From contig JOEL01000044.1 of the NCBI GenBank assembly GCA_000720995.1, forward strand, positions 1 to 64,000: a stretch of 64,000 nucleotides of DNA, written 5' to 3'. Shown here in pieces: positions 44,649-64,000 of this stretch. Made by a program: the position numbers and the translations under genes. Source of the DNA: Streptomyces celluloflavus. GTDB lineage: Bacteria > Actinomycetota > Actinomycetes > Streptomycetales > Streptomycetaceae. The notes under the pieces were generated by a model. That model saw only the letters and a program-made list of their open reading frames with translations. It was not told where the DNA came from and did no database searches. How positions within the stretch are numbered: the stretch's first letter is position 1; each line of letters begins with the position of its first letter.

Positions 44649-45101
44649 TCAGCGGTCCGCCGCCTGCCGAGCGGAATGGCAGCTTTCGCACAGTCCCCAC
44701 CAGATGATCTCGGCTTCGTCGATGGTGAACCCCTTGTGCTCGAAGGGCTCCAGGCAGGGGGCCTGACCGGTGCTGCAATCGATGTCCTCGATCTGCCCGC
44801 AACCGCGGCACACCAGATGATGGTGGTTGTCCCCGACGCGCAGTTCGTAGCGGGCCGGGGACCCGGCTGGTTCGATGCAGCGGATCAGTTCGGCCTGGGT
44901 GAGATCGTCGAGCACGTTGTACAGCCCCTGCCGGGAGAGCCCCCCGGAGGAGGTCTTCCCGCCCGAGGCGATGCCGATCCGGCTCTCCAGCTCCGCCGCG
45001 GTGGAGTGCGGATGACCTTGCAGGGCGGCCAGCACGGAGCGGCGCTGTACGGTGCTCCGCAAACCCTTGGCCCTGAGCATGCCGGCTGCCACTTGGTCCA
45101 T
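44649..45101 (-). CDS. Fur-family repressor, CatR/FurA-like
   Basis: 150 residues. Fur fold: N-terminal winged helix (RAKGLRSTVQRRSVLAALQGHPHSTAAEL, here RSTVQRRSVLAAL) and C-terminal metal-binding domain with DNHHHLVCRGCG (His cluster, CxxC) and LCESCHSA (second CxxC). Sequence context GLSRQGLYNVLDDLTQAELIRCIEPAGSPARYE is the form seen in streptomycete CatR, a peroxide-sensing repressor of catalase. The catalase gene is 5 kb away on the other side of the N-oxygenase cassette. Probably senses peroxide through its redox-active metal site. Confidence 0.87.
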   Translation of the reverse strand: MDQVAAGMLRAKGLRSTVQRRSVLAALQGHPHSTAAELESRIGIASGGKTSSGGLSRQGLYNVLDDLTQAELIRCIEPAGSPARYELRVGDNHHHLVCRGCGQIEDIDCSTGQAPCLEPFEHKGFTIDEAEIIWWGLCESCHSARQAADR

Positions 45102-45349
45102 CTCGCAGTCGTACCTTCCGGTCACTGGCGGGCATCGCGCACGGGGCAGGCTCACCCGTGGCATCCGGCTGGAAACCGGCGCCACCCGCCTGCCCTCACA
45201 TGCGGCGGTGTCGCCCCGTCCGCACGCCATATTGGCTGAGAACAAGTCTAGCCGGAGCATCTCGCGGCCCCCGGTGGCAAACCCCGGGTGATCCTGCGGT
45301 GAACCGGCCCGCACCCTGCGCCCGAACCGGCGCTCCGGGGGACCTGGCC

Positions 45350-45415
45350 GACGGTATCGGTGCCGGTGGCGGACGGTATCGGAGCTCGTGACGGACGGTA
45401 TCGGCGATTGCTGCG
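45350..45415 (+). repeat. 22-bp phased direct repeats, three copies
   Basis: GACGGTATCGG begins at 45350, 45372 and 45394, exactly 22 bases apart, and each copy ends in CG. The unit is two helical turns, so the three sites lie on the same DNA face. They are 70 bases upstream of the promoter at 45485, where an activator array would be expected. Confidence 0.75.
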
Positions 45416-45484
45416 GAGCGCCCGCATCGCGTCGGCCGGGCCTGCTTCGCGGACCCGCGAACGGGGGCGAACCTGTCACTAGAG

Positions 45485-45514
45485 TTGACTCCGTCCAATC
45501 TGGCGAGCTAACTT
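45485..45514 (+). promoter_or_regulatory. Promoter upstream of the DUF2180 gene
   Basis: TTGACT (45485-45490) and TAACTT (45509-45514), 18-base spacer, fit a vegetative or activated sigma-70-type promoter. It points toward the DUF2180 gene and the N-oxygenase cassette, with the 22-bp repeats upstream. Confidence 0.55.
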
Positions 45515-45667
45515 CTCAGTCGGTGGCGGAGCGTTGATCAGCCTCTCGTCGACCAGTACGCGTACGCCGTTGTTGAACCCCACCTCACGCCGAGACGCCA
45601 CCTCCCCGGATCAGGAACCGCGCACTTGGGCCGGGAGTGCACAGGCGCGTACCCGATGGAGCTTCTC

Positions 45668-45877
45668 TTGAAGTGTTACGACTGCTGCCTTGCCGACAGG
45701 AACGGCAAGGTCCCCGTTGGCATTTGCTGCCGCTGCGGCCTCGCCGTCTGCGCCGAGCACGCACATGTCGCGCAGAGCACCATCCACAGGATGGCCGGTA
45801 TGGGCAAGTCGACCAGTGACCTGCCCGCCCGCCGCGTGCTCTGCCAGACCTGTCACGGGGCCGAGCGCTCCTTCTGA
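45668..45877 (+). CDS. DUF2180-like small cysteine-rich protein
   Basis: 69 residues from TTG 45668, chosen because GGAG precedes it by six bases and because DUF2180 proteins begin with M-x-CYDC; a longer frame from ATG 45656 is possible. Three paired-Cys sites (CYDCC, CCRCG, CQTC) and a His-rich segment (CAEHAHVAQ) suggest a zinc-ribbon-like fold. Function unknown; relatives are common near stress and metabolite genes in streptomycetes. First gene after the promoter at 45485. Confidence 0.75.
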   Translation: MKCYDCCLADRNGKVPVGICCRCGLAVCAEHAHVAQSTIHRMAGMGKSTSDLPARRVLCQTCHGAERSF

Positions 45878-45899
45878 GCTCCCGCGGCCCCGGAATTCC

Positions 45900-45928
45900 C
45901 CGCCGGCTTTCGGCGTGAAGCCCGGCGG
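45900..45928 (+). terminator. Hairpin after the DUF2180 gene
   Basis: CCGCCGGCTT (45900-45909) pairs with AAGC(C)CGGCGG (45918-45928), with one bulged C. It begins 23 bases after the stop, so the cassette downstream probably has its own promoter. Confidence 0.5.
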
Positions 45929-46257
45929 AAGAACGGGACGCCCCGGCGATGACCGACGCCGGAGCGGACCAGCGGCCGCCTCACCTTCCTCCCCCCTGTA
46001 CGAGACCGATTCCGCCTTCATGTGAAGCGGTGAACCGTCGTGCGGAACACTCCGCCGCGGATGCTGCACAGCGGAGGCCGTCGGTCTCGGGTCCGCCGGC
46101 CGGAGAAATCACCCATGCACCCGCGGGCCGGCGGATTTGCGGCGGACAGCCTGCGCTTCCCTTCCCCGTCGAAGCTCCGCGCTCCCCTGTCCAGCCAGTC
46201 GTCTCCAGCGCAGTTCCCCGAATTCACCCGCGCATTTCCCCGAATTCAGGAGATGGG
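45929..46257. other. Leader region of the N-oxygenase cassette
   Basis: About 330 bases with no gene. The clearest feature is TTCCCCGAATTCA at 46214-46226 repeated exactly at 46236-46248, 22 bases apart, just before the AGGAG of the N-oxygenase. No promoter pair was found with confidence. Confidence 0.5.
46214..46248 (+). repeat. 13-bp direct repeat with 22-bp period
   Basis: TTCCCCGAATTCA at 46214-46226 and 46236-46248. Same 22-base spacing as the repeats at 45350. Ends eight bases before the N-oxygenase start codon region. Confidence 0.75.
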
Positions 46258-47175
46258 ATGATCAGCGAGCTGATCAGCAAGGATGAACGATTCCAGGAGA
46301 TCCTCGAACGCCTGAACCGCAAATCGGTCGAGGACTACTACAACCCGTACCGGATGTTCGAGTGGCCGGACTCCCTGCCGGAGAACCGGTGGTGGATGAG
46401 CCCCGAACTCACGACCACGTACGGGACCGAGGTTGCCGCCGAACTCGACCAGGAGCAGTTATACCGGCTGTCCCGGTACGAGAGCATCAACTTCTACAGC
46501 CTCAACGTGGACGGTATCCGGGACCTCATCATCGAGGTGACCCGGCGCATCCACACCCGCGGCTTCGAGATTCCGTCGGAGTTCTTCCACCATTTCATCG
46601 GTGAGGAGAACGAACACATGTGGTTCTTCGCCGAGTTCTGCCAGCGCTACGGAGAGAAGATCTACCGCCAGGTGGAGTCGTCCGGGCAGGACGAGACGTG
46701 GCCGGAGGCCGCCAGCTTCCTGGTGTTCGTCCGCATCCTCCTCTTCGAGGAACTGGTCGACCACTTCAACAGCACGATGGCCCTCGACGAGCGGCTGCAC
46801 GACACCATCCGCGCGGTCAACCGCATCCACCACCAGGACGAGTCCCGGCACATCGCCTTCGGCCGTGAACTGGTCTCCCTGCTCTTCGAGGACCTGAAGA
46901 CCAAGGCGTCGCCGGAGCGGCTCGACGAGATCCGGGAGTACATCAAGCGCTACGTGAACTACAGCTTCGAGTCGCTGTTCAACCCCCAGGTCTACCGGGA
47001 TGCCGGAATCCCCGAACCGTTCGCCGTGCGGCGTCGCCTGCTGGCCTCCCCGCGCAGCGCGGAGTTCCAGCAGCAGGTGCTCCGCAAGCCGCTGAACTTC
47101 CTCGTCAAGACCGGGATTCTGCACGACCGGAACCTCGCCCCCACCGGCCTGCCGACCGCACGGGGGAATTCGTGA
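46258..47175 (+). CDS. AurF/CmlI-type diiron N-oxygenase
   Basis: 305 residues from ATG 46258 with AGGAG upstream. The diiron ligand set of the AurF family is complete: E75 (candidate), E117-x-x-H120 (GEENEHMWF), E164 (LLFEELVDHF), H191 and E195-x-x-H198 (HHQDESRHIAF). The 27-residue spacing from E164 to H191 and the 4-residue step to E195 equal those in AurF (E196, H223, E227). AurF and CmlI oxidise arylamines to nitro groups using a peroxo-diiron site; relatives accept carrier-protein-bound substrates. A TTA codon is present (codon 68, 46459-46461). First gene of the cassette; its stop overlaps the next start (GTGA). Confidence 0.88.
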   Translation: MISELISKDERFQEILERLNRKSVEDYYNPYRMFEWPDSLPENRWWMSPELTTTYGTEVAAELDQEQLYRLSRYESINFYSLNVDGIRDLIIEVTRRIHTRGFEIPSEFFHHFIGEENEHMWFFAEFCQRYGEKIYRQVESSGQDETWPEAASFLVFVRILLFEELVDHFNSTMALDERLHDTIRAVNRIHHQDESRHIAFGRELVSLLFEDLKTKASPERLDEIREYIKRYVNYSFESLFNPQVYRDAGIPEPFAVRRRLLASPRSAEFQQQVLRKPLNFLVKTGILHDRNLAPTGLPTARGNS

Positions 47176-48005
47176 CCGCGCCGATATCGATCGCTCCGGG
47201 CGGTGCGCTCAGCATCCTCAGCCCCGACGAGACGGACCTGTTGCGCACGCTGGACCGCATCGTCACCGGCTGGGCCGAAGAGGACGGCACACGGGAGATC
47301 ATCCCCCCGCCGGTCTACCCGCTGCACGACCTGGAGAAGTTCGACGTCTACCGGAACTTCCCCCATCTGCAGTTCGTCGGTGGCGCGCTGGATGTGGCCG
47401 GTACCCCGCCGGCACCGGTGGCGGGCGTCTTCGCCCGCGACGACGTCGAGCTGCCGTTCCTGGGGATGCCGCACTCCACCTGCTACGGCGCCTATCTCTA
47501 CTACGAGAACCAGCCCGTGGCCCCTGACACCACCCTCACTCTCGTCAACCGGTGCTTCCGCAACGAGGACAAGTACGAGGGGCTGCGGCGGCTGCTCAGC
47601 TTCCAGATGAGAGAGGTGGTGGCGATCGGGTCGTTCGAGCACACCCAGGAGGTCCTCGATCGCTTCACCGGCCGGATCGAGCGGTTCGCCGAGGCCCTGG
47701 GCCTCGGGCTGACGAAGGTGGCGGCCACCGACCCGTTCTTCGAACGCGACGGCGCCCGCGCCCTCCTCCAGCGCCTCAGCCCGGTCAAATACGAGTTCCA
47801 GGCCGACGGTCTGGCCATCGCCTCGGTCAACACCCACCGCAACTTCTTCGGCGAACGGTGCCGCATCACCATCGAGGGCACCGGCGAGCACGCCTACACG
47901 AGCTGTGTCGCCTTCGGCCTCGAACGGTGGCTGGCGGCCCTGAGCGACCGGTTCGAGGGCGATCTGCCCCGTGCCCGCGCCGCCGTCACCGCGGCGGCCT
48001 CGTGA
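47172..48005 (+). CDS. Amino acid:[carrier protein] ligase, class II aaRS-like
   Basis: 277 residues from GTG 47172, overlapping the N-oxygenase stop. A truncated class II aminoacyl-tRNA synthetase fold without a tRNA-binding domain: motif 2 with Arg130 (NRCFRNEDKYEG) and motif 3 (CVAFGLERW). Zinc ligands of the SerRS-derived amino acid:carrier protein ligases are matched by Cys104 (HSTCYGAYL), Glu148 (FQMREVVAIG) and Cys245 (AYTSCVAFG). Such enzymes activate an amino acid as AMP ester and load it on a phosphopantetheinyl carrier, not on tRNA. The carrier protein is encoded two genes later. Amino acid specificity (Ser, Gly, Ala or other) is not evident. Confidence 0.85.
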   Translation: MTAPISIAPGGALSILSPDETDLLRTLDRIVTGWAEEDGTREIIPPPVYPLHDLEKFDVYRNFPHLQFVGGALDVAGTPPAPVAGVFARDDVELPFLGMPHSTCYGAYLYYENQPVAPDTTLTLVNRCFRNEDKYEGLRRLLSFQMREVVAIGSFEHTQEVLDRFTGRIERFAEALGLGLTKVAATDPFFERDGARALLQRLSPVKYEFQADGLAIASVNTHRNFFGERCRITIEGTGEHAYTSCVAFGLERWLAALSDRFEGDLPRARAAVTAAAS

Positions 48006-48442
48006 CCGCGGCCGCGGTGCGGGTCGGCGTGGACATCGTCCCCGTCGCCCGCGTGCGGACCATGGTCGACGCCGACGGCGCCGGCCCGCTGCACCTGATG
48101 CTCACCGCGGCGGAAGCGGAGCTCAGCCGTCTCCCCGCGGGCTGGGACCTCCACGGCGTGGCCGGTCGGCTCGCCGCGAAGGAGGCGGTGTTCAAGCTGT
48201 TCCACATCGCCGACCAGCCGCTCCCGTGGACCTCCATCGAGATCCTCAAGGGCCCCGGGCAGTGGCCGTACGTCCGGCTCGCCGGGGCGGCCGGCCGGTG
48301 GGCCGCCGAGGCCGGCCTGGCGGAGATCGACATCAGCATCTCCCACGAAGACCAGTTCGCTGTCGCCGTCGCCGCGGGTGCGGCGGTACCCCCCACGCAC
48401 AAGGAGGAATGCCATGCCGAACACGACATCGTCCAACCTTGA
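48002..48442 (+). CDS. AcpS-type 4'-phosphopantetheinyl transferase
   Basis: 146 residues from GTG 48002, overlapping the ligase stop as GTGA. AcpS signatures: VGVDIVPVARV near the N-terminus (metal-binding Asp) and RLAAKEAVFKLF (catalytic Glu/Lys), then ISISHEDQFAVAVA. It attaches the 4'-phosphopantetheine arm from CoA to the carrier protein encoded next, whose start lies 29 bases inside this gene. A dedicated PPTase next to its carrier is a sign of a self-contained pathway. Confidence 0.87.
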   Translation: MTAAAVRVGVDIVPVARVRTMVDADGAGPLHLMLTAAEAELSRLPAGWDLHGVAGRLAAKEAVFKLFHIADQPLPWTSIEILKGPGQWPYVRLAGAAGRWAAEAGLAEIDISISHEDQFAVAVAAGAAVPPTHKEECHAEHDIVQP

Positions 48443-48653
48443 CCAGGTGCGGAACTGGCTGCTGGCCAGGACCACCGAGCGCGACTCCATCGACCCGGAC
48501 GAGGACCTCATCACCGCCCGCCTGGTCGACTCGCTGTCCTTCGTCGAGTTCGTCCTCACGATCGAGGAGGCCAGTGGCGTCGAGATCGACCGCGAAGCCA
48601 TCGACCTCGACGACTTCCGCACCCTGAAAGCCATCGAGCGGAAGTTCTTCTGA
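48414..48653 (+). CDS. Stand-alone acyl/peptidyl carrier protein
   Basis: 79 residues from ATG 48414 (AAGGAGGA upstream, inside the PPTase gene). Carrier-protein four-helix fold with the phosphopantetheine site Ser40 in RLVDSLSFVEFVLTIEE. Acidic throughout, as expected. Probably receives the amino acid from the ligase and presents it to the N-oxygenase and hotdog enzyme. The stop overlaps the MaoC start (TGATG). Confidence 0.9.
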   Translation: MPNTTSSNLDQVRNWLLARTTERDSIDPDEDLITARLVDSLSFVEFVLTIEEASGVEIDREAIDLDDFRTLKAIERKFF

Positions 48654-49123
48654 TGGGCCGTCTGCTCTACGCGCAGGACTACGAGACCGGTACGCTCCAC
48701 GACCTCGGGTCGCACAAGGTCACGGCGGACGAAATCACCGCCTTCGGCCGGACCTACGACCCGCAGCCGTACCACGTCGACGAGGCGGCGGGGCGTGCCT
48801 CGGCCTTCGGCGGCCTCATCGCCAGCGGGTGGAACACCGCGGCGATCTGGATGCGCCTGTACGTGACGACGCTGCTGCCCGACGCCGCGGCCGAGGGCAC
48901 GGTCGAGGGCTCCCCCGGCGTGGACGAGGTGCGCTTCCTGGAACCGGTCCGCCCCGGCGACGTGCTCAGCGGCACCTGCGAGATCATCGCGTCCCTGCCG
49001 TCCCTGTCGGCGCCCGACTTCCGCATCATCCGCAACCGCGGCCGGCTGGTGAACGCGGCCGGTACCGAAGTCCTCACGCTGATCCTGAACGCCCGGTTCC
49101 GGTCCCGTCCCAAGCATTCCTGA
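48653..49123 (+). CDS. MaoC-family hotdog dehydratase/hydratase
   Basis: 156 residues. Hotdog fold with MaoC hydratase motif Asp36 and His41 in RTYDPQPYHVDE, then SAFGGLIASGWNTAA. Family members hydrate enoyl thioesters or dehydrate beta-hydroxyacyl thioesters. Here it probably acts on the carrier-bound amino acid derivative, for example removing water after N-oxygenation or beta-hydroxylation. That chemistry is speculative. Confidence 0.87.
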   Translation: MGRLLYAQDYETGTLHDLGSHKVTADEITAFGRTYDPQPYHVDEAAGRASAFGGLIASGWNTAAIWMRLYVTTLLPDAAAEGTVEGSPGVDEVRFLEPVRPGDVLSGTCEIIASLPSLSAPDFRIIRNRGRLVNAAGTEVLTLILNARFRSRPKHS

Positions 49124-49152
49124 CCAGCCCCTTTCCCCGAATGGAGCTTCAC

Positions 49153-49971
49153 ATGGAGACCGTGTCGTACACGTCGCAGTGGACTGCGGCCGCCCGCGCG
49201 CTGGAGAGCGAACGCAGTGACGCGCTGTTCAGCGATCCGCTGGCGCGGTCGCTGGCCGAACCCCGCGGGTTCGAACTCCTCGACCAGTACGGCGGCGGCG
49301 GGCTCGTCGAGTTCGTGGCCATCCGCACCCGCTACCTCGACGACGCGATCAACGACCTGGTGGGGCAGGGCGTCCGGCAGGTCGTGCTGATCGCGGCCGG
49401 TATGGACACCCGCGCGTTACGCCTCAAGCTGCCGGACGACATCACCCTGTACGAGGTGGATCACCAGGCGCTGATAACGGAGAAAGAGAAACGCCTCGCC
49501 CGGCTGGCGGCCCCGTCGCCTTCCGTGCCACTGCGACGGGTCGGGGCCGACCTGGCGGGGGACTGGTCCGCGGCGCTGCGTGACGCCGGATTCGATCCGG
49601 CGCTGCCCACCCTCTGGGTGCCCGAGGCCCTGCTGTTCTTCCTCACCGAGGAGCAGTCCGCCACGCTTCTGCGCACCCTTGCCGCCAACTCCGCGCCCGG
49701 AAGCTGGGTCGCGCTGGACATCCTGAGCAAGTCGCTGCTGCGCAACCCCGCCGCCCAGATCTTCCTGTCCGCTCTCAAGTCGGACGGGATCCCCTGGCTG
49801 TTCGGCACCGACACGCCCGAGGAGTTCCTGGCGGGCACCGGCTGGACGGTCCGGGAGCTCAAGGAACCGGGCGAGCCCGGTGCGGGCGAAGGGCGCTGGC
49901 CCTACGCCGTCCAGCCGCGCGAGGTCGGCGGCGTGGCCCGCAACTGGCTGATCCGCGCGGAACTCACGTAA
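49153..49971 (+). CDS. SAM-dependent methyltransferase (LCM-like, TIGR00027 type)
   Basis: 272 residues from ATG 49153 with TGGAG upstream. Leucine carboxyl methyltransferase-like fold: TSQWTAAARALESERSDALFSD, VVLIAAGMDTRALRL (SAM-binding glycine loop) and LYEVDHQALI. Such enzymes often methylate carboxyl groups. It carries a TTA codon (codon 89, 49417-49419). Last gene of the overlapping cassette; a strong terminator follows at 49988. It may mask the carboxylate or N-O group of the product. Confidence 0.9.
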   Translation: METVSYTSQWTAAARALESERSDALFSDPLARSLAEPRGFELLDQYGGGGLVEFVAIRTRYLDDAINDLVGQGVRQVVLIAAGMDTRALRLKLPDDITLYEVDHQALITEKEKRLARLAAPSPSVPLRRVGADLAGDWSAALRDAGFDPALPTLWVPEALLFFLTEEQSATLLRTLAANSAPGSWVALDILSKSLLRNPAAQIFLSALKSDGIPWLFGTDTPEEFLAGTGWTVRELKEPGEPGAGEGRWPYAVQPREVGGVARNWLIRAELT

Positions 49972-49987
49972 CCGAAGCCGGTGCGGT

Positions 49988-50013
49988 GGCCCGGCCCCCG
50001 CGGGGGCCGGGCC
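49988..50013. terminator. 26-bp perfect palindrome terminator
   Basis: GGCCCGGCCCCCG directly followed by its reverse complement, between the methyltransferase and catalase genes. Very GC-rich; no U-tract. Confidence 0.65.
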
Positions 50014-50060
50014 GCTCCCGGCGACCCGACAACCCATCAGCCGTACGAAGGGAAAGTGCC

Positions 50061-51518
50061 ATGAGCGTAAGTCGTCCGGTGACGACCACGGACAGCGGTA
50101 TTCCGGTACCGAGTGACGAGTTCTCCCAGTCGGTGGGCGCCGACGGCCCGCTGCTGTTACAGGACCACTACCTCATCCAGAAGCTCGCCCACTTCGACCG
50201 CGAGCGCGTCCCCGAGCGGGTGGTGCACGCCAAGGGCGGCGGCGCCTACGGAGTCCTGGAGATCACCGAGGACGTCAGCCAGTACACGCTGGCCGATGTC
50301 TTCAAGCGGGGCAAGCGCACCGAACTGTTCCTGCGCTTCTCCACGGTCGCCGGTGAACTCGGCTTCGCCGACACCGTCCGCGATCCGCGCGGTTTCGCGG
50401 TGAAGCTCTACACCGAAGAGGGCAACTACGACATCGTCGGCAACAACACGCCGATCTTCTTCATCCGCGACCCGCAGAAGTTCCCCGACTTCATCCACTC
50501 GCAGAAGCGGCGTGCCGACAACCACCTGCACGACAACAACATGCAGTGGGACTTCTGGACGCTCTCCCCGGAGACGGCGCACCAGGTGACGCTGCTGATG
50601 TCCGACCGCGGCACCCCGTACTCCTGGCGCCATATGAACGGCTACGGCAGCCACACCTTCCTCTGGTACAACGCCGCCCGGGAGAAGTTCTGGGTGAAGT
50701 ACCACTTCAAGACCGACCAGGGCATCAAGAACTTCACCAACGACGAGGCCGCCGCCGCGGCCGCCGCCGACCTGGACACCCATATCCGGGACCTCCACAC
50801 GGCGATCAAGAAGGGCGACCACCCGTCCTGGACCCTCCAGGTACAGGTCATGCCCTTCGAGGAGGCCGCGGACTACCGGTTCAACCCGTTCGACCTGACC
50901 AAGATCTGGCCGCACGAGGACTACCCGCCCATCGACATCGGGACCCTCACCCTCAACCGCAACCCGCAGAACTACTTCGCCGAGGTCGAGCAGGCCGCGT
51001 TCGAACCCTCGAACCTGGTCCCGGGAGTGGCGCCCTCACCGGACAAGATGCTCCAGGGCCGGCTCTTCAGCTACCCCGACACCCACCGCTACCGGATCGG
51101 CGCCAACTACCTCCAGCTCCCGGTCAACCGGCCCAAGAACGCGGTGCACTCCTACAACCGCGACGGGGCCATGCGGCTCGACAACCCCGGCGACCCGGTC
51201 TACGCGCCCAACAGCCACAGCGGCCCGGTGGCCGACCCGACCCTGCTGGCCGGCGAGGGCTACGAGGCCACCGGCGAGATCGTGCGCAGCGCCCACCGGC
51301 TGCACGCCCAGGACGACGACTTCGTCCAGCCGCGCGCGCTGTGGGAGCAGGTCATGACCGATGTCGACCGCGAGCACCTGGTGACCAACATCGTCGCGCA
51401 CGCCTCGGCACCCGAGGTGCTGACGGAGACGAAGGAGCGCATCGTCGACTACTGGCGCAACGTCCACAAGGACCTCGGCAGCCGGGTCGCCCAGGGTCTG
51501 GGCGTCAACGGGAAGTGA
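50061..51518 (+). CDS. katA: Monofunctional heme catalase
   Basis: 485 residues from ATG 50061 with GAAGGG upstream. Catalytic His56 (ERVVHAKGGGAYG) and the Asn of IVGNNTPIFF (127-128) are present, and the heme-ligand Tyr lies in GRLFSYPDTHRYRIG. Length fits small-subunit clade 3 catalases. It converts hydrogen peroxide to water and oxygen in the cytoplasm. A TTA codon is present (codon 33, 50157-50159), unusual for a protective housekeeping enzyme and suggesting bldA dependence. Its CatR-like repressor is encoded at 44649-45101, separated by the N-oxygenase cassette. Confidence 0.96.
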   Translation: MSVSRPVTTTDSGIPVPSDEFSQSVGADGPLLLQDHYLIQKLAHFDRERVPERVVHAKGGGAYGVLEITEDVSQYTLADVFKRGKRTELFLRFSTVAGELGFADTVRDPRGFAVKLYTEEGNYDIVGNNTPIFFIRDPQKFPDFIHSQKRRADNHLHDNNMQWDFWTLSPETAHQVTLLMSDRGTPYSWRHMNGYGSHTFLWYNAAREKFWVKYHFKTDQGIKNFTNDEAAAAAAADLDTHIRDLHTAIKKGDHPSWTLQVQVMPFEEAADYRFNPFDLTKIWPHEDYPPIDIGTLTLNRNPQNYFAEVEQAAFEPSNLVPGVAPSPDKMLQGRLFSYPDTHRYRIGANYLQLPVNRPKNAVHSYNRDGAMRLDNPGDPVYAPNSHSGPVADPTLLAGEGYEATGEIVRSAHRLHAQDDDFVQPRALWEQVMTDVDREHLVTNIVAHASAPEVLTETKERIVDYWRNVHKDLGSRVAQGLGVNGK

Positions 51519-51546
51519 CCACGAACCCCACAGTCAGGAGCAGACC

Positions 51547-52329
51547 ATGAGTTCGGCCGCGACCGTCACGGTACGGCGTCTCGCCTGGGCCGGGGTCGAA
51601 GTGGCCGCCGGGGATGTGCGGGTGGTCATCGATCCGCTGCAGAACACCGCGGACCTCGCCGGGTTCCAGGGCATGCCGCGGCGCCCCATGCCCGGCATCG
51701 GGGCCTCCCCGGGGGTGCGGACCCACGCCCTCATCACCCACCTCCACCCCGACCACTGCGATCGCCAACTGCTGACCGACATCGCCGGCAGCGAAGGCGG
51801 CACGGTGGGGTGTCACGCCCCGATCGTGGACGTCCTGGCCGGGATGGGGGTGACCGCGACGCCGCAGACACTGGGCGAGCGGCGCCAGCTCGGCCCGTTC
51901 ACCGCCCTCCCCGTCGCCTCGCACGACTGGCGCGGTGACGACCAGGTCGCCTGGATCGTCGAAACCGCCGGTCTGCGCGTCATCCACTTCGGCGACACCA
52001 TCTGGCACGGCAAGTGGTGGCAGATCGCCCGCGACCACGGCCCTTTCGACGTCGCCTTCCTCCCGATCGCCGGAGTGATGACGCGCCGCGAGGGATTCAC
52101 CCCCACCAACCAGCCCGCCACGCTCACCCCCGAGCAGGCCGTCGAAGCCGCGGTCGTCCTCCAGGCGTCGACCGCCTGCGCGATCCACTACGACCTGTTC
52201 AACAACCCTCCGTACTACACCGAGCAGCACGACGTTCGCGGGCGCTTTCTGCGCGCCGCCCAGGCCAGGGGCATCCACGCGGTCGCTCCCGGCGACGGGG
52301 AACCCGTGCCGTTCGCCAGCGCCGCCTGA
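51547..52329 (+). CDS. MBL-fold metallo-hydrolase (UlaG-like)
   Basis: 260 residues, ATG 51547 with AGGAG upstream, 28 bases after the catalase stop. The metallo-beta-lactamase signature is ITHLHPDHCD (HxHxDH), with later ligand regions SHDWRGDD and RVIHFGDTIWHG and a terminal His in AIHYDLFN. UlaG-like members hydrolyse lactones or phosphodiesters. May be part of the cassette's pathway as a thioester or lactone hydrolase, or be unrelated. Confidence 0.85.
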   Translation: MSSAATVTVRRLAWAGVEVAAGDVRVVIDPLQNTADLAGFQGMPRRPMPGIGASPGVRTHALITHLHPDHCDRQLLTDIAGSEGGTVGCHAPIVDVLAGMGVTATPQTLGERRQLGPFTALPVASHDWRGDDQVAWIVETAGLRVIHFGDTIWHGKWWQIARDHGPFDVAFLPIAGVMTRREGFTPTNQPATLTPEQAVEAAVVLQASTACAIHYDLFNNPPYYTEQHDVRGRFLRAAQARGIHAVAPGDGEPVPFASAA

Positions 52330-52347
52330 CCACACCAAGCTCGGACA

Positions 52348-52411
52348 CCCGCCGGGCCGTTCCCCCGTACCGCGAGCCCCGTGGTGCCCGCGGGGGCGAC
52401 GGCCCGGCGGG
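52348..52411. terminator. Long hairpin between MBL and MFS genes
   Basis: CCCGCCGGGCCGT (52348-52360) pairs exactly with ACGGCCCGGCGGG (52399-52411), and CCCCCG/CGGGGG pair inside the 38-base loop. Confidence 0.55.
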
Positions 52412-53698
52412 CGCTCATGGAAGGAACATTCGTGACCCCGCCCCCCGAACGGGAAGCCCCCGTGTCCCCACGCCCCGAGGCGGCTGACGTGCCGGCACCC
52501 CCCGAGGCGGCCGAGGTGCCCGCACCGGCCGGGCGCCCGGCCGCCGAGCACGGCGCCGAGTCCGCCCACGGCGCGCGGCGCGGCCGTCATCTGCTGTGGT
52601 ACGCCCTGGTGGTGCTGCTGGTCGGGATCAACATGCGGCCCGCGATCGTCGCGGTCTCCCCGCTGCTGGACGAGATCCGGCAGGCCACCGGCCTGTCCAA
52701 CGGCGCCGCGGGCGCGCTGTCCACCCTGCCGCTGATCTGCTTCGGCATCTTCGCTCCGCTCGCGCCCCGGCTGGCCCGCCGCTGGGGGATGGAACGCACC
52801 CTGGTCGCGGTGCTGCTGGTGCTGCTGTGCGGGATCGCCGTACGCCTGGTCCCGTCGCTGTTCCCGCTGTTCGCCGGGTCGTTCCTGGTCGGCACCGCGG
52901 TGGCCGTCGCCAACGTGGTCATCACCGTCGTGATCAAGCGGGACTTCCCGCGGCACGTCGGGCTGATGTCCGGTCTGCACACCACCATGCTGGTCGGCGG
53001 CGGCGCGGTCGCGGCCGCCGTGACCGTCCCGCTGCGCGACGCCCTGTCGCTCTCCTGGGCCGGCGGCCTCGCCATCTGGGGCGTCCTGGCGCTGGCCGCG
53101 GTGCTGGTGTGGGTGCCGCGGCTGCGCCGCGGGCGCGAAGTCCCGCAGACCCGGGCGCAGGCGGACGGTTCGATGTGGCGCAGCGGACTGGCCTGGGCCG
53201 TCGCGCTGTTCTACGCGTTCCAGTCCCTGCTGTACTACACCGCGACCACCTGGCTGCCGTCGTTCTACATCTCCCACGGCTACTCGGAGGGTGGCGCCGG
53301 CATGCTGCTGGCGGTCTGCATGGGCTCCGCGATCGTCACCTCCCTCCTGGTGCCGGTGTGGGCGCAGCGGTCCCGGCGGCAGAGCTACCTGGCGTTGGGC
53401 GGCACCCTGCTGTGCGTGGCCGCCTTCGTCGGGCTGATCTCCGCACCGACCGGGGCGGCGGTCCTGTGGGCCGTGCTGCTCGGCCTCGGCCTGGGGGCCG
53501 TCCTGTCGCTGGGCATCACCTATATGTCCATGTGTGCCCGCACCACGCACGACGCCGGACTGCTGTCGGCGATGTCCCAGTGCGTGGGCTACCTGCTCGC
53601 CGCCGTCGGCCCCACCACCTTCGGCGCCGCCCGCGACCTGACCGGCAGCTGGACCGCGGGGCTGATCGCGCTGGTGATCCTGGCGGTACCGATGGGCC

Positions 53699-54895
<1,197 letters not shown>

Positions 54896-58627: not shown

Positions 58628-59908
58628 TTGCATCGCTATTTCACCGACCAGCGGCATGAAGCGCTCCGGCACCGGGTGAGGGATTTCGCCGAGCAGGAGA
58701 TCCGTCCCCGGATTGCGGAGATGGAGGCGAGCCGTACCGTCTGTCACGGCCTGTCGCGCCGGATCGCCCAGCAGGGGTGGATCGGCGCGACCGTGCACCG
58801 GGCGTACGGCGGGATGGGCGCCGGGCATGTGGCCAAGACCCTCGTCATCGAGGAGATTTCGCGGGTGAGCGCGGCCATGGGCGCCATGGTCCAGGCGTCC
58901 CAGCTGGGCGTCGCGAAGATCGTCCACTTCGGGAGCGAGGAGCAGAAGAAGACCTGGCTGCCGGCGATCGCCGCCGGCGAGTGCCTGCCGACCATCGCCG
59001 TCACCGAACCGCAGTCCGGCGGGCATGTCCTGGGGATGACCTCCACCGCGGTCCGCGACGGCGACGACTACGTCCTCAACGGCCACAAGATCTACGTAGG
59101 CAACAGCCATGTCGGCGATCTGCACGGCGTGGTCGTCCGTACCGGTGAGGGCCCCAAGGGCCTGTCGGCGTTCCTGGTGGAGTCCGACCGGCCCGGCTTC
59201 CGGGTCGGGGAACAGCGGCCCGCGATGGGACTGCACGGCTTCAGCTTCGGCGAGCTGTTCTTCGACAACTGCCGGGTGCCCGCGGCGAATCTGCTGGGCA
59301 AGGAGGGCGACGGACTCTCCGTGGCGTACTCCTCCAGCGTGCTCTACGGCCGGCCGAATCTGACCGCCGTGTCGCTGGGCATCCATCAGGCGGTGCTGGA
59401 CGAGACGACGCGCTTCTGCGCCGAGCGGCAGCGGTACGGCAAACCGCTGGCCGACCTGGGCAACATCAAGCTCAAGCTCGGCCGGATCCAGTCGCGGCTG
59501 CTGCTCGCCCGGCTGTCCGCGTACCACGCGGTGCATCTGCTGGACCAGGGCATGCCGTGCGACGCGGAGCTGATGAACGCCAAGCTGGTCAACGTCGAGT
59601 CGGCCCTGGAGTCGGCGCGTGACGCGATGGACATCCATGCCGCGTGCGGGCTGTTCACCGACCGGCCGGTGGAGCGCTTTCTGCGGGACGCGCACCATAT
59701 CTTCGCGCCGGCCGGCACCTCCGACGTCCAGCTGCTGCGCCTGGGCGAACTGGCCCTCGGCCAGGCGAAGGGCGAATGGTCCAGCCGGCTGGCGGATCTG
59801 CTGCGCCTCGATCCGGCGGAGCGGGCGGATCCGGACGCCCCGGCCCCGCTGCCGGGCCGGCGCACCGAACCGGCCGAGGAGTGCCACGCGTTCGCGCCGC
59901 TGAAGTGA
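58628..59908 (+). CDS. Acyl-CoA dehydrogenase
   Basis: 426 residues from TTG 58628 with GGAGGAG eight bases upstream; the longer frame to 58571 has no ribosome site. Acyl-CoA dehydrogenase fold: N-terminal helical domain (HRVRDFAEQEIRPRIAEME), beta domain with ICIAVTEPQSGGHVLGMTSTA-like FAD loop (seen as TIAVTEPQSGGHV), and C-terminal helical domain (FCAERQRYGKPLADLGNIKLKL, HHIFAPAGTSDVQLLRLGELALG). FAD-dependent alpha,beta-desaturation of an acyl-CoA is expected. Substrate unknown. The C-terminal 30 residues are Pro/Ala-rich. Preceded by the interleaved-repeat element. Confidence 0.9.
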   Translation: MHRYFTDQRHEALRHRVRDFAEQEIRPRIAEMEASRTVCHGLSRRIAQQGWIGATVHRAYGGMGAGHVAKTLVIEEISRVSAAMGAMVQASQLGVAKIVHFGSEEQKKTWLPAIAAGECLPTIAVTEPQSGGHVLGMTSTAVRDGDDYVLNGHKIYVGNSHVGDLHGVVVRTGEGPKGLSAFLVESDRPGFRVGEQRPAMGLHGFSFGELFFDNCRVPAANLLGKEGDGLSVAYSSSVLYGRPNLTAVSLGIHQAVLDETTRFCAERQRYGKPLADLGNIKLKLGRIQSRLLLARLSAYHAVHLLDQGMPCDAELMNAKLVNVESALESARDAMDIHAACGLFTDRPVERFLRDAHHIFAPAGTSDVQLLRLGELALGQAKGEWSSRLADLLRLDPAERADPDAPAPLPGRRTEPAEECHAFAPLK

Positions 59909-60027: not shown

Positions 60028-60651
60028 TCACCCGGCGCCGGGGCCGGACGCGCCGCTCTGCCGCTGCTCCATGCGGTGGATCTGGTCGACGAGTTCGGCG
60101 GCCATCGCCTTGATCGTCTCCAGCCCCTCCCGCCCCCAGGGGCGCGGTTCGAGGTCCACCACGCAGACGGTGCCGAGCGCCGTCCCCGTACGGTCGATGA
60201 GCGGCGCGCCGAGATAGGAACGGACGCCGATCCCGTCCACCACGGGGTTGCCGGCGAACCGCGGGTAGTCGCAGACGTCCTCCAGGACCAGGGCCTTGCG
60301 GCGGACGACGACATGCGGGCAGTAGCCGTGGTCGCGGGCCATCACCCGTCCCGGCCGGATGTTGGCGGGCGCCGGTCCCAGCTCGACGGGTGCCTGGTCC
60401 TGTGCGGAGGTGTAGAGCCCGGCGAAGTACTGCCGCTGCTCGTCGATGAAGTTGACCATCGCGTACGGCGCCCGGGTCGTCCGGGCCAGCTTGCGCGCGA
60501 ACTCGTCGAACGCGGGCAGCGGGGAATCGCCGATGCCCAGGGCCCGCAGCCGGGCGACGCGCGCCGGGGCCTCGTCGTCCTGCGGGGTGAGCAGCAGATG
60601 GCGCGTCGGATCGTAGGAGGTGTACGGGACGCGGGAGACGGGGTGGTTCAT
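60028..60651 (-). CDS. GAF domain protein of a conservon
   Basis: 207 residues from ATG 60651 (GGAG upstream). A single GAF domain: FARKLARTTRAPYAMVNFIDEQRQYFAG, CPHVVVRRKALVLEDVCDY, SYLGAPLIDRTGTALGTVCVVD and a helical end. Overlaps the GTPase stop by four bases (ATGA). In many conservons the fifth gene is a P450; here a GAF sensor takes that position. May sense a ligand or redox state for the complex. Confidence 0.87.
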   Translation of the reverse strand: MNHPVSRVPYTSYDPTRHLLLTPQDDEAPARVARLRALGIGDSPLPAFDEFARKLARTTRAPYAMVNFIDEQRQYFAGLYTSAQDQAPVELGPAPANIRPGRVMARDHGYCPHVVVRRKALVLEDVCDYPRFAGNPVVDGIGVRSYLGAPLIDRTGTALGTVCVVDLEPRPWGREGLETIKAMAAELVDQIHRMEQRQSGASGPGAG

Positions 60652-61268
60652 GGCAGCTCCGGGGTCGCGACGAGAGCGGGGGTGAGCAGGTACTGGACGA
60701 GTGAGACCAGGACATGGGTGGCCGAACCGCACCGGCGGGCGTCGCAGAGCACGACGGGGATGTCCGGCGAGAGGTCGACGGCGCTGCGGACTTCGTCCGG
60801 GGTGTAGTGGTGGGAGCCGTCGAACTCGTTGACGGCGACGATGAACCGGATACCGCGCCGTTCGAAGAAGTCGACGGCGCCGAAGCACTGGTCCAGGCGC
60901 CGGGTGTCGGCGAGGATGACCGCGCCGAGCGCGCCGTTGGACAGTTCGTCCCACATGAACCAGAAGCGTTCCTGGCCCGGCGTGCCGAAGAGGTAGAGGA
61001 CGTGCGCGGGGCCGAGGGTGATCCGGCCGAAGTCCATGGCGACGGTGGTGGTGTGCTTGTCCTCGATCCCGGCCAGGTCGTCGGTGCCGATACTGACCTG
61101 GGTGAGGAGTTCCTCCGTACTGAGCGGTTCGATCTCGCTCACCGCGCCGACGAAGGTCGTCTTGCCGACTCCGAAGCCGCCCGCGATCAGGATCTTGAGT
61201 GCGGTCGGGAAGAGGTCGGGCACCGGCTCCCCCGGCGTCGTGGGGTCACAGTCGTTTGCGAAGTCCAT
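60648..61268 (-). CDS. cvnD: Conservon GTPase CvnD-like
   Basis: 206 residues. Walker A/G1 GGFGVGKTT, G3 LFGTPGQERFWFMW, and VAVNEFDG in place of NKxD: the signature of the CvnD family of MglA-like small GTPases. Starts 23 bases inside the DUF742 gene. In the conservon model CvnD works with CvnA-C as a membrane-linked complex resembling heterotrimeric G-protein signalling. Cytoplasmic. Confidence 0.93.
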   Translation of the reverse strand: MDFANDCDPTTPGEPVPDLFPTALKILIAGGFGVGKTTFVGAVSEIEPLSTEELLTQVSIGTDDLAGIEDKHTTTVAMDFGRITLGPAHVLYLFGTPGQERFWFMWDELSNGALGAVILADTRRLDQCFGAVDFFERRGIRFIVAVNEFDGSHHYTPDEVRSAVDLSPDIPVVLCDARRCGSATHVLVSLVQYLLTPALVATPELP

Positions 61269-61650
61269 GCAGCACCGCCTCCAGCAGGGCTCGGTCGGTA
61301 CGGGAGCCGGCTCCCGCCGAAACCGCGACGGGGGCCCGCGCGGTGAGTGCTCCGCAGTCCACGAGATCGGCGAGGAGCACTTTGGTGACCACGGCCGGCA
61401 GCCGTATGTGGGCGGCGATCTCGGCGACCGAGACCGGTCCGCCGCACAGCCCCAGCACCTGGGCGTAGTCGGGTCCCTGGCAGGAGTCGGGCCGCCGCCC
61501 GGTGGCCATCACCATGGTCAGCAGGTCGAAGTGGGACGTGGGGCGCGTCCGGCCGTTGCTGATGGTGTACGGGCGCACCAGCGGGCCCGCCTCGTCGTCG
61601 TACCACGGTGGCTCCTGGCCGCGCTGCCACCGTCGGCGACCCGGCAGCAC
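61246..61650 (-). CDS. cvnC: Conservon DUF742 protein CvnC-like
   Basis: 134 residues from GTG 61650, two bases after the roadblock stop, ribosome site GGTGG inside that gene. DUF742 core: LVRPYTISNGRT, FDLLTMVMATG, LCGGPVSVAEIAAHIRLPAVVTKVLLADLVDCG (winged helix-like). Its role in the conservon is not known in detail; it may act as adaptor to the GTPase. Confidence 0.93.
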   Translation of the reverse strand: MLPGRRRWQRGQEPPWYDDEAGPLVRPYTISNGRTRPTSHFDLLTMVMATGRRPDSCQGPDYAQVLGLCGGPVSVAEIAAHIRLPAVVTKVLLADLVDCGALTARAPVAVSAGAGSRTDRALLEAVLHGLRKRL

Positions 61651-61652
61651 GT

Positions 61653-62102
61653 TCAGCCACCGCCCGCGGGTGCCTGCCGCCGGGGAGGCGTGGAGAGGTA
61701 CGGCCGGACGCTCTTGACCAGCATTCCCATCTCGTAGCCCAGCACCGCCACATCGGCCTCGCGCCCGGCGAGCACCGCCAGGCAGGCACCCGATCCGGCG
61801 GTGGAGACGAACAGGAAGGACGATTCGAGTTCGACGACGACCTGGAGGACGTCATCGCCCCCGCCGAAGCGCACCCCGGCGCTGCGGGCGAGGGAGTACA
61901 GGCCGGAGGCCAGGGCCGCCATATGGTCGGCGCTGTCCGCGTCGAAGCCGTCGGCGGCCTTGACCAGGCCGTCGGAGGAGAGCAGGAGCGCGCTGCGGGC
62001 GTGCGGCACGCGCTGCACGAGTCCGGTCAGCAGCCAGGACAGATCCGACTGCTGACCTCCCGGCAGTTGCGAATGAGGCTGCGCGTGCACATCACTCACC
62101 AT
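61653..62102 (-). CDS. cvnB: Conservon roadblock/LC7 protein CvnB-like
   Basis: 149 residues from ATG 62102, overlapping the kinase stop by 11 bases; GTG 62099 is possible. Roadblock/LC7 fold: LSWLLTGLVQRVPHARSALLLSSDGLVKAADGF and ADVAVLGYEMGMLVKSV. MglB-like proteins of this type act as GTPase-activating partners, here presumably of CvnD. Confidence 0.93.
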   Translation of the reverse strand: MVSDVHAQPHSQLPGGQQSDLSWLLTGLVQRVPHARSALLLSSDGLVKAADGFDADSADHMAALASGLYSLARSAGVRFGGGDDVLQVVVELESSFLFVSTAGSGACLAVLAGREADVAVLGYEMGMLVKSVRPYLSTPPRRQAPAGGG

Positions 62103-64000
62103 GGTTGTGGTCGTCTCCTCTGAGGCGGGCGGTCGGGGTGTCGTGGTCACGGCCGTGGAGCGGGTGATCGCCGTCCGGGCCGGGGGTGTTGCCGGTACCG
62201 CCGTCGGGGTGGGCGGCCGGGTGGTTCTCGTCACTGGTGTCGGCGGCGAGGCTGATACCGCGCCGGAAGGCGGCCATCAGGCCGGGGTCGTGCATGGGCT
62301 CCGGCCCCGTACGGCGCACCGCGGACGGCAGGATCGGGTCGCCGCGCAGTTCGGGGACGAGGTGCTCCTGCTTGCGCCGGCGCGGCAGCTGCGGGCGGAT
62401 TCCACCGGGCGGCGCAGGGGCGTCCGGTGCGTCGTGCGGTACGGGCGGCAGTCCGGCCGGACCCGGCTCGGCGGGCCGCTCCTCGACGGCCCGGTGGTAC
62501 TCCGGGCCGTCGGCGGGGTACGCGGGCGTGAGCTGCCGGGTGGCGGGGGCGGCGGTCACGTACGGGGCGGATTGCGCCTGGGGGGCGTACGCCGGGGCTC
62601 CCGTGGGCGCGGCCCGGTGCGGCGCGGCCGGCTGCCCGCCGGTGTCCGTGCCCCTGTCCGCGTCGGCGCCGGTGCTCATGCCGGTGCCGGGGTCGGCGGG
62701 TGGCCCGGCCGCGGGGCGTGCGGCACCGTGGTGCGCCGCCGCGGGGGCGAGCTCCGGGGCGGGGCCGGACGGGGATCCCGTGCCGCCCTGGCCGAGGTGG
62801 TGCCGGGTCCGGTGTCCGTCGCCGGGTCCGCCGTCGCGCTCGTGGTCCGGGCCGGTGTCGGGCGACTCCGTGGGAGCGGTGCCCCGTTCGCTCCCCGCGC
62901 CGGCCGGTTCCGTGCCGATCAGCTCCGGCGGCAGGATCAGTACGGCCTGCACTCCGCCGTAGATGTTGCTCTGCAACCGGACCACGATGCCGTGCCGCCG
63001 GGCGAGCGAGGAGACCACGAAGAGGCCGATCCGCCCGTCGCTCAACAGCGCGTCGACATCGATGTGTTCGGGGTCGGCGAGCAGCGCGTTCATCCGCGTC
63101 CGCTCGTCCGGTGACATGCCCAGTCCGCGGTCCTCGACCTCGACGGCGAGACCGGCGGTGACCTGCTGGGCCCGCAGCAGGACGGAGGTCCGCGGGGCGG
63201 AGTAGACCGACGCGTTCTCGATCAGTTCGGCGAGCAGGTGGATGACGTCGGCGACCGCGTGGCCGCGCAGTGTGCCCTCGGTCGGGGGGACGAGCTTGAT
63301 CCTCGGGTACTGCTCGACCTCGGCGATGGCGGAGCGCAGTACCTCGATCATGGTGACCGGGCGGCTCCACTGGCGGCGCGAGACGGCGCCGCCCAGCACG
63401 GCGAGGTTCTCGGCGTGGCGGCGGATGCGGGTGGCCAGGTGGTCGACGTGGAAGAGGCCCTTGAGCAGGTCGGGGTCCTCGACCTGGTGCTCCAGCTCGT
63501 CCAGCATCTCGATCTCGCGGTGGACCAGGGATTGCAGGCGACGGGCGAGGTTCACGAAGACCTCGACCTTCTGCTCGCTGTCGTTGGCGGTGCACCGGGC
63601 GGCGGCGACCGCGTCGATGACGGCGGTCTCGGCGGCCCGGCCCACGGCGGCCACTTCGGCGGCGAGCAGATCGAGGGTGTCGCCGGTGCGGACCGGGCCG
63701 GGCTCGGGGTCGCGGTGCTGGAGCCGTTCGCCCCGCCGTACCTGGTCCAGCAGCCCGTCGAGGTCGGACCTGCTGCGGGCGCAGACCTGGCGCAGCCGGG
63801 CGTAGCGCGTGACGGTGGCGCGGGACGCGGCGTGGGCGGCGGCGCCCGCGGTGAGCACGATGATGCAGATCACCGCGAGGCCGCCGGTCAGCGCCGCCCA
63901 CTCGCGGCCGGTGAGCCGGACATCGCCGCTCCCGATGACGAAGGCGGTGACGGCCACGCAGGTGACGGCGGTCAGCAGGCACGGGACGGTGACGAGCCGG
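62092..64000 (-). CDS. cvnA: Conservon sensor kinase-like CvnA (partial, 5' end beyond window)
   Basis: At least 636 residues; the frame is still open at base 64000 (reading VTVPCLLTAVTCVAV before GTG 63957), so the true start is outside. Two membrane helices (the edge helix and WAALTGGLAVICIIVLTAG), a helical linker, then a HATPase domain: N-box HLLAELIENAS, G1 VEDRGLGMSPDE, G2 GRIGLFVVSSLARRHG. There is no clear phospho-accepting His, as in other CvnA proteins. A Pro/Gly-rich, disordered C-terminal tail of about 250 residues follows. Overlaps CvnB, giving one operon of five genes. Confidence 0.9.
   Translation of the reverse strand, partial: RLVTVPCLLTAVTCVAVTAFVIGSGDVRLTGREWAALTGGLAVICIIVLTAGAAAHAASRATVTRYARLRQVCARSRSDLDGLLDQVRRGERLQHRDPEPGPVRTGDTLDLLAAEVAAVGRAAETAVIDAVAAARCTANDSEQKVEVFVNLARRLQSLVHREIEMLDELEHQVEDPDLLKGLFHVDHLATRIRRHAENLAVLGGAVSRRQWSRPVTMIEVLRSAIAEVEQYPRIKLVPPTEGTLRGHAVADVIHLLAELIENASVYSAPRTSVLLRAQQVTAGLAVEVEDRGLGMSPDERTRMNALLADPEHIDVDALLSDGRIGLFVVSSLARRHGIVVRLQSNIYGGVQAVLILPPELIGTEPAGAGSERGTAPTESPDTGPDHERDGGPGDGHRTRHHLGQGGTGSPSGPAPELAPAAAHHGAARPAAGPPADPGTGMSTGADADRGTDTGGQPAAPHRAAPTGAPAYAPQAQSAPYVTAAPATRQLTPAYPADGPEYHRAVEERPAEPGPAGLPPVPHDAPDAPAPPGGIRPQLPRRRKQEHLVPELRGDPILPSAVRRTGPEPMHDPGLMAAFRRGISLAADTSDENHPAAHPDGGTGNTPGPDGDHPLHGRDHDTPTARLRGDDHNHGE

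Follow-up and report, generated by a model that had tools for sequence, protein, structure and literature searches.

A compact Streptomyces gene cassette that probably loads glycine onto a carrier protein, oxidizes it to a nitronate and O-methylates it

What could be made by six tightly packed genes that include an N-oxygenase, an amino acid:[carrier protein] ligase and a free carrier protein, with no nonribosomal peptide synthetase (NRPS) or polyketide synthase (PKS) beside them? This question is raised by a cassette on contig JOEL01000044.1 of Streptomyces celluloflavus (assembly GCA_000720995.1), of which positions 1 to 64,000 were analysed; this whole stretch of 64,000 nucleotides is referred to as the window. 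An earlier interpretation made from the letters alone (the sequence-only reading) had proposed that an amino acid is tethered, N-oxygenated and O-methylated without an adjacent NRPS or PKS. Comparison with related loci supports this, as the genes are conserved together, and suggests that the cassette probably carries out glycine loading, N-oxygenation to a nitronate and O-methylation on the carrier. Any particular end product is a more doubtful matter, and those named below are tentative.

Six open reading frames (ORFs) were confirmed, all on the plus strand of a GC-rich contig from an actinomycete genome of 8.68 Mb, and the overlapping or near-touching ends claimed for them were borne out; frames, coordinates and Pfam families all match. 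The first gene encodes an AurF-family diiron N-oxygenase of 305 aa (46258..47175; Pfam PF11583, AurF), and its end is overlapped by 4 nt by the GTG start of a class II aminoacyl-tRNA synthetase (aaRS)-like amino acid:[carrier protein] ligase of 277 aa, probably specific for glycine (47172..48005). An AcpS-type phosphopantetheinyl transferase (PPTase) of 146 aa, also with a GTG start, overlaps the ligase by 4 nt (48002..48442; TIGR00556, 50.1 bits against a cut-off of 45.35) and is itself overlapped by 29 nt by a free carrier protein of 79 aa (48414..48653), whose attachment residue Ser40 is present in all 167 aligned sequences, duplicates included. The carrier gene is overlapped by 1 nt by that of a MaoC-type hotdog protein of 156 aa (48653..49123) and, after a gap of 29 nt, the last gene encodes an LCM/TIGR00027-type S-adenosylmethionine (SAM) methyltransferase of 272 aa, the proposed nitronate O-methyltransferase (49153..49971; TIGR00027, 209 bits), with an alternative in-frame ATG at 49141. 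All six genes pass their curated Pfam cut-offs (AurF, 114.1 bits against 29.6; ACPS, 41.7 against 25; PP-binding, 28 against 20.8; MaoC, 56.3 against 27; LCM, 155.8 against 22.3), the ligase barely so (tRNA-synt_2b, 29.4 against 29.3).

Do these genes belong together? When 394 genomes of the family were searched, the ligase found matches in 127 (E<=1e-15) and AurF in 86 (E<=1e-30; 99 matches), and in 97 of those 99 the ligase lies within 3 kb of AurF. The gene order therefore recurs in other genomes, and on the same count chance adjacency of the cassette genes was rejected. A phylum-wide search indicated rarity: at E<=1e-40 it picked out 3 of 396 genomes, which all belong to the same genus as the window and include the window's own. 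Neighbourhoods were collected for 138 AurF loci, 129 of them non-redundant with the window included; these loci, numbered L042 and so on below, were chosen by similarity and are not a random sample. The named part of this set (the best 80 of 183) was found by AurF alone and gave 71 non-redundant loci new to the sample, of which 69 have the ligase.

In the oxygenase, Glu75, Glu117, His120, Glu164, His191, Glu195 and His198 are each kept in at least 128 of 129 sequences, and their spacing is presumably that of the seven iron ligands of AurF. An AlphaFold model (16 sequences) reached a pLDDT of 79, weaker than the ligase model, and its top Foldseek matches were AurF (2jcd) and CmlI (5hyg) at a TM of about 0.5, with only one match at E<=0.001; phmmer found no relative of the window AurF in the Protein Data Bank (PDB) at E<=0.1. 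These two arylamine N-oxygenases belong to the same Pfam family, but they share just 12-14% identity with the window protein in structural alignments, and its expected substrate, an aliphatic aminoacyl-carrier, is unlike their arylamines. Nitronate is listed among the products of ferritin-like diiron N-oxygenases in the available part of PMC12154687.

The next question is which amino acid would be loaded. The ligase consists of a class II aaRS catalytic core with Cys-Glu-Cys zinc-site residues and no tRNA-binding domain. Its match in the PDB is Bll0957 of Bradyrhizobium (E 6.9e-19), which has the same fold, the same three zinc-site residues and the same bare-core size but is only about 28% identical. 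Cys104, Glu148 and Cys245 are conserved in 122, 123 and 124 of 124 ligases, the remainder being gaps, and align with Cys131, Glu176 and Cys279 of Bll0957 (a numbering that presumes a 20-residue tag on the PDB chain), which we take to be its zinc ligands. The ligand sets claimed from sequence for both oxygenase and ligase thus hold across relatives. An AlphaFold model of the ligase (18-sequence alignment) had a pLDDT of 86 and found as its best Foldseek match 4h2s (E 2e-20, TM 0.81), a structure of a glycine:[carrier protein] ligase together with its carrier. Because the ten chains nearest to the model are all Bradyrhizobium glycine:[carrier protein] ligase (4h2s/3mf1), the model points to glycine as the most likely substrate. 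Loading of another small amino acid, such as alanine or serine, would lead to a different N-oxygenated acid; the low identity to Bll0957 and the fact that archaeal SerRS is the next structural kin leave some room for this. However, the ligase is identical to Bll0957 at most invariant positions (e.g. K206, S218, N220, H222, C245 and A247), and the nitronate chemistry and monooxygenase partner described below fit glycine, so loading of alanine or serine is quite unlikely. The ligase also occurs away from AurF (L050, L052 and L053): a carrier lies alongside in L052 and L053, a P450-like gene (by eye) adjoins the L053 pair, and in L050 a carrier and a P450-like gene are found at a distance of some kb, on the opposite strand. 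The ligase therefore seems to serve other pathways as well.

The oxidation level was approached through the partners of the core. Across the 129 non-redundant loci (tblastn, within 7 kb), 88 have the methyltransferase, 18 have a nitronate monooxygenase (NMO), 23 have neither and none has both. The NMO-type loci are L051, L065-L076, L079, L084-L086 and L091; the NMO name was assigned with PF03060 (116 bits) for one representative, L071, and with a profile made here for the others. No gene matching this profile lies within 7 kb of the window cassette, as against 18 of the 128 other loci, and an ORF labelled NMO by BLAST in L133 is on the opposite strand, towards the distant end of the locus, below the profile threshold and outside 7 kb. 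The NMO-type cassettes share the AurF, ligase and carrier core with the window (the ligase is uncalled or split in L071, L076 and L079) but carry an NMO in place of the methyltransferase. Since relatives with the same core have this other partner, the oxidized group would most likely be a nitronate. The pattern also matches a published fork, in which the nitronate of S. achromogenes var. streptozoticus NRRL 3125 is either O-methylated into enteromycin or denitrified by an NMO (He & Ryan 2021, as cited in the available part of PMC11035981). The sequence-only reading had left the product as a hydroxylamine, oxime, nitro or azoxy amino acid; this is now narrowed, most likely to glycine by the structural kin of the ligase and most likely to a nitronate by the NMO-bearing relatives. 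Within Micromonospora (160 genomes), nine genomes have a ligase match and the methyltransferase type occurs only in that of L111; ten further ligase loci in the eight others include eight with NMO, none with methyltransferase and two with neither, one of which has no AurF. In L051 and L065-L073 the NMO cassette is part of a conserved run whose other genes resemble those for aminotransferases, phosphatases, kinases and dehydrogenases (by eye), as if nitrite or a glyoxylyl-carrier fed an aminocyclitol-like pathway.

In the proposed pathway, the PPTase would prime the carrier, the ligase would adenylate glycine and transfer it onto the carrier thiol, and the AurF-type oxygenase would convert the tethered amine to a nitroacetyl or nitronate group. 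The methyltransferase would then methylate the nitronate oxygen, a nitronate being a carboxylate isostere that suits the LCM family. The small acyl group would be finished or released by the MaoC protein, by a metallo-beta-lactamase (MBL)-fold hydrolase encoded downstream, or by both, while a transporter of the major facilitator superfamily (MFS) would export the product and a catalase would handle peroxide. The simplest product, for export by the MFS protein, would be a derivative of O-methyl-aci-nitroacetate. We infer all of these steps from homology and context, and the MaoC step, the release and the final product are the weakest. Methylation might instead fall on the carboxylate after release, giving a methyl ester of nitroacetate or of another N-oxygenated acid, as is usual for the LCM/TIGR00027 family and as would be feasible if the MBL hydrolase freed the acid first. 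However, the window methyltransferase is 65-67% identical to those of L115, L129 and L151 (the next best in the same genome reaches 29-44%), loci that fit enteromycin, whose pathway forms an O-methylnitronate. Carboxylate methylation is therefore very unlikely.

How close, then, is the cassette to described pathways? In L115 (S. achromogenes NRRL B-2120), L129 (S. albireticuli NRRL B1670) and L151 (S. eurocidicus), the core is followed by genes for KASIII, ATP-grasp, a pyridoxal phosphate (PLP) decarboxylase, a second carrier and an acyl-CoA dehydrogenase (families taken from the representative L042). Such a set would be in keeping with the making of an aminoacrylate amide like enteromycin, and we infer from the gene content that L115 and L129 are enteromycin-type clusters. 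We take S. albireticuli to be an enteromycin producer; of its three AurF-family genes, two are a pair common to all six Streptomyces-type genomes compared, so only the third is of the window subfamily. Five of the six window genes are 53-67% identical to those of L115 and L129. An AurF-type oxygenase, a carrier, a nitronate and an O-methyltransferase (the last two as predicted for the window) are common to the window cassette and the enteromycin pathway as far as the available sources describe it, but the window has a MaoC protein, catalase, MBL hydrolase and MFS transporter and lacks adjacent KASIII, ATP-grasp, PLP decarboxylase and second carrier. A search that covered the genes of the window found none of these four, and the flanking genes belong to other families. 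In the part of PMC11205464 available, enteromycin is named only as a predicted product.

In a second group of relatives (L110, L111, L124 and L134), the core has as neighbours an A-domain-like protein and a large protein resembling a PKS, which a family search resolved in L111 as A-T and KS-AT-KR-ACP. L111 fits the cluster of akazaoxime and A-76356 in M. humidisoli as described in section 3.2 of PMC9967187, and the spacing of PKS and methyltransferase agrees within one gene if the locus tags step by ten per gene. According to the available part of that paper, akazaoxime is an enteromycin-class compound with an aldoxime, and its glycine is proposed to be loaded by an NRPS; if the L111 fit holds, the glycine loader would be the ligase instead. 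These loci share the AurF-ligase-carrier-methyltransferase core with the window (identities to L111: AurF 67%, ligase 57%, PPTase 44%, carrier 52%, methyltransferase 58%) but differ in the adjacent A-T protein, KS-AT-KR-ACP PKS and alpha/beta-hydrolase (from the L111 family search), and in having no MaoC. The sequence-only reading knew of no described pathway with this exact gene set, but the view that nothing similar has been described is not supported: O-methylation of a glycine-derived nitronate has been published (He & Ryan 2021, via the available parts of PMC9967187 and PMC11035981), five of the six genes have homologues in loci that fit the enteromycin type, and categorical novelty was rejected because of the published fork. 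The chemistry is of a described kind, and the new element is a nine-gene cassette that stands alone, includes MaoC and has no assembly line beside it. A literature search found no description of this gene set and none of an aaRS-like ligase in such a cassette, though subscription papers were poorly covered and the ligase could well be described in He & Ryan 2021.

Several points weigh against nitronate O-methylation by a glycine-loading cassette. LCM-type enzymes usually methylate carboxylates. The ligase scored 94.6 bits against NCBIfam PRK07080 (amino acid--[ACP] ligase), far under the cut-off of 357, which sets it apart from Bll0957 and places it in the same superfamily but another subfamily. 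The 23 loci with neither partner, some of them so because the contig ends, leave part of the sample outside the methyltransferase/NMO pattern, and that state changes only twice on the AurF tree, so the exclusivity, although real, reflects few evolutionary events and not 106. It should be noted that this tree excludes L098 (a 191-aa AurF fragment), that its labels predate the tblastn additions (methyltransferase of L126 and L145, MaoC of L169) and that its deep forks are unsure because the outgroup branches are very long. The MaoC protein has no counterpart in the enteromycin-like loci, and retention of the catalase, MBL and MFS genes discussed below may be mere recent common descent. Lastly, M. 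humidisoli was not recognised among the 160 Micromonospora genomes searched by ligase, and that the cluster of He & Ryan 2021 may have a window-type ligase and methyltransferase is suggested by gene comparison.

The role of MaoC is one of the weakest parts of the proposal. Its nearest PDB sequence is 3exz, a MaoC-like dehydratase (E 1.8e-25), and Asp36/His41, which we take to be the hydratase catalytic dyad, is conserved in 49 of 49 sequences, duplicates included. This pair argues for elimination or addition chemistry and not for plain thioester hydrolysis. MaoC was found in 43 of 129 loci (tblastn, within 7 kb), all 43 of them with the methyltransferase. In the 86 loci whose methyltransferase was found by HMM (window included), 40 have MaoC without an acceptor, 41 an acceptor without MaoC, one both and four neither, where acceptors are KASIII, AMP-ligase/A domain, PKS or alpha/beta-hydrolase within 9 kb. 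In L166, the sole locus with both, the hydrolase is part of another cassette, the second in that genome (L119), and of the four with neither, L169 has MaoC by tblastn and L054 has another alpha/beta-hydrolase. MaoC may thus complete or release the acyl group in loci that have no other enzyme to accept it. Against such a rule, AMP-ligase-like genes lie just past the 9-kb limit in L049 (9.1 kb) and L164 (10.0 kb), and a PKS-like ORF of 910 aa about 6 kb upstream in L043 (by eye) was excluded by the PKS length test; the pattern is suggestive only, because the AurF tree shows roughly four changes of the MaoC label. L119 and L166, both from Streptomyces sp. HNM0574, are two different methyltransferase cassettes about 12 kb apart, one with the alpha/beta-hydrolase and the other with MaoC.

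The dyad and the dehydratase kinship would also suit an oxime branch, in which MaoC acts as an aza-dehydratase or isomerase on N-hydroxylated glycyl-carrier and the aldoxime is capped to an O-methyl oxime; akazaoxime, of the enteromycin class, bears an aldoxime (PMC9967187, available part). However, relatives with the same core use an NMO, which points to the nitronate oxidation level, and the akazaoxime-like loci (L110, L111, L124 and L134) have no MaoC, which makes this branch unlikely. In a further, highly speculative view, MaoC would act on the carrier-bound aci-nitro, N-hydroxy or O-methyl nitronate form and eliminate a nitrile oxide (a 1,3-dipole) or an O-methyl oxime, making the nine genes a generator of small electrophiles. 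The atom beta to the thioester would then be nitrogen, conceivably a new substrate class for a hotdog enzyme, and the catalase, MBL hydrolase and exporter might at a stretch serve protection and release. Mycothiol-linked genes beside L049, L099, L100 and L173 are in line with this. There the AurF-ligase-carrier-MaoC-methyltransferase set has as its flanking genes those of a mycothiol maleylpyruvate isomerase/DinB-like protein (assigned by PF11716 in L099) and of a PIG-L deacetylase (by PF02585 in L049), which suggests a thiol-reactive product handled by mycothiol. In another class (L044-L048, L101, L102 and many of L154-L184), MaoC occurs with two methyltransferases, a Cys/Met PLP enzyme and a MetK-like gene, and many of these loci add adenosine kinase-, MetH-, MetF- and AhcY-like genes, a SAM-recycling set; the PLP enzyme and second methyltransferase were assigned by Pfam and the other names by eye. 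A MetK homologue lies within 9 kb in 29 of the 86 methyltransferase loci.

Nitronate O-methylation on the carrier being the preferred reading, it remains to ask where the unit ends. Three plus-strand genes follow: a catalase of 485 aa, a probable member of the unit (50061..51518; Pfam Catalase, 624 bits); the MBL-fold hydrolase of 260 aa, possibly off-loading or detoxifying (51547..52329; Lactamase_B_2, 67 bits); and the MFS transporter of at most 453 aa, its start being unsure, a possible exporter (52381..53742; MFS_1, 96 bits). The closest named genomes, with AurF 84-88% identical (S. pinistramenti, S. hiroshimensis, S. roseoverticillatus, a 'Streptosporangium nondiastaticum' record and S. 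klenkii; L105-L109), all have the six genes in unchanged order, followed by these three. Because the three stay with the cassette in all five, an end of the unit at 49971 was rejected, and the unit probably comprises nine genes (46258-53742). Within the genus, 3 of 295 genomes, the window's own included, have an MBL match of at least 82%, each with the catalase adjoining; by their coordinates the other two are S. roseoverticillatus (L107) and S. klenkii (L109). Eight weaker matches (58-61%, tblastn, genus genomes) have no catalase within 1.5 kb on either side. In the genomes searched, all matches of at least 81% are in those that bear the cassette, on the same contig and about 5 kb from the cassette AurF, and each of the five L105-L109 genomes has one at that distance; at E<=1e-40 no MBL match was found in S. 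albireticuli, the carrier of an enteromycin-like locus. The statement that neither NRPS, PKS nor an obvious thioesterase is present thus stands for adjacent NRPS and PKS genes, while it left uncounted the MBL hydrolase, a possible candidate for off-loading or release. An alpha/beta hydrolase at 53699-54895 on the minus strand was dropped as a thioesterase, as it lies outside the conserved block of L105-L109. A promoter scan of 45870-54000 found none, and the one terminator-like site there lies inside the catalase gene and is below chance expectation.

If the proposal is true, nitronate formation would be a portable module of ligase, carrier and oxygenase, often with a PPTase of its own, that many pathways could take up, and its usual glycine loaders would be aaRS-like ligases and not NRPS A domains, so that glycine loading in the akazaoxime cluster would be re-assigned. 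The methyltransferase/NMO difference would give a gene marker distinguishing O-methyl nitronates from denitrified products, and the cassette would be a small NRPS/PKS-free system amenable to in vitro study. If the MaoC step is a chemical one, a very common fold would gain a new reaction.

Some other loci and neighbouring genes are worth recording. L126, on a contig filed as Candidatus Melainabacteria, carries the cassette (AurF 66%, MaoC 68%) as far as a methyltransferase that is only partial, and is probably a misbinned actinobacterial contig. In L087-L090 the core lies beside a PAD_porph deiminase (Pfam, L088) and a condensation-domain-like protein (by eye), with neither methyltransferase nor NMO. 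Upstream of the window cassette, 44649-45877 holds a Fur-type regulator (minus strand) and a DUF2180 protein (plus strand); the equivalent position in L105 and L107 has a divergent LysR-type gene (by eye in L105, by Pfam in L107) and a DUF2180-like gene. About 5 kb past the MFS gene, an acyl-CoA dehydrogenase-like gene (58676-59908), not shown in the conserved block of L105-L109, falls into a loose cluster with the acyl-CoA dehydrogenase that the enteromycin-like loci carry, a grouping lost under stricter limits. On the minus strand, 60028-63957 is a conservon-like run of sensor-, roadblock-, small-GTPase- and GAF-like proteins (by eye).

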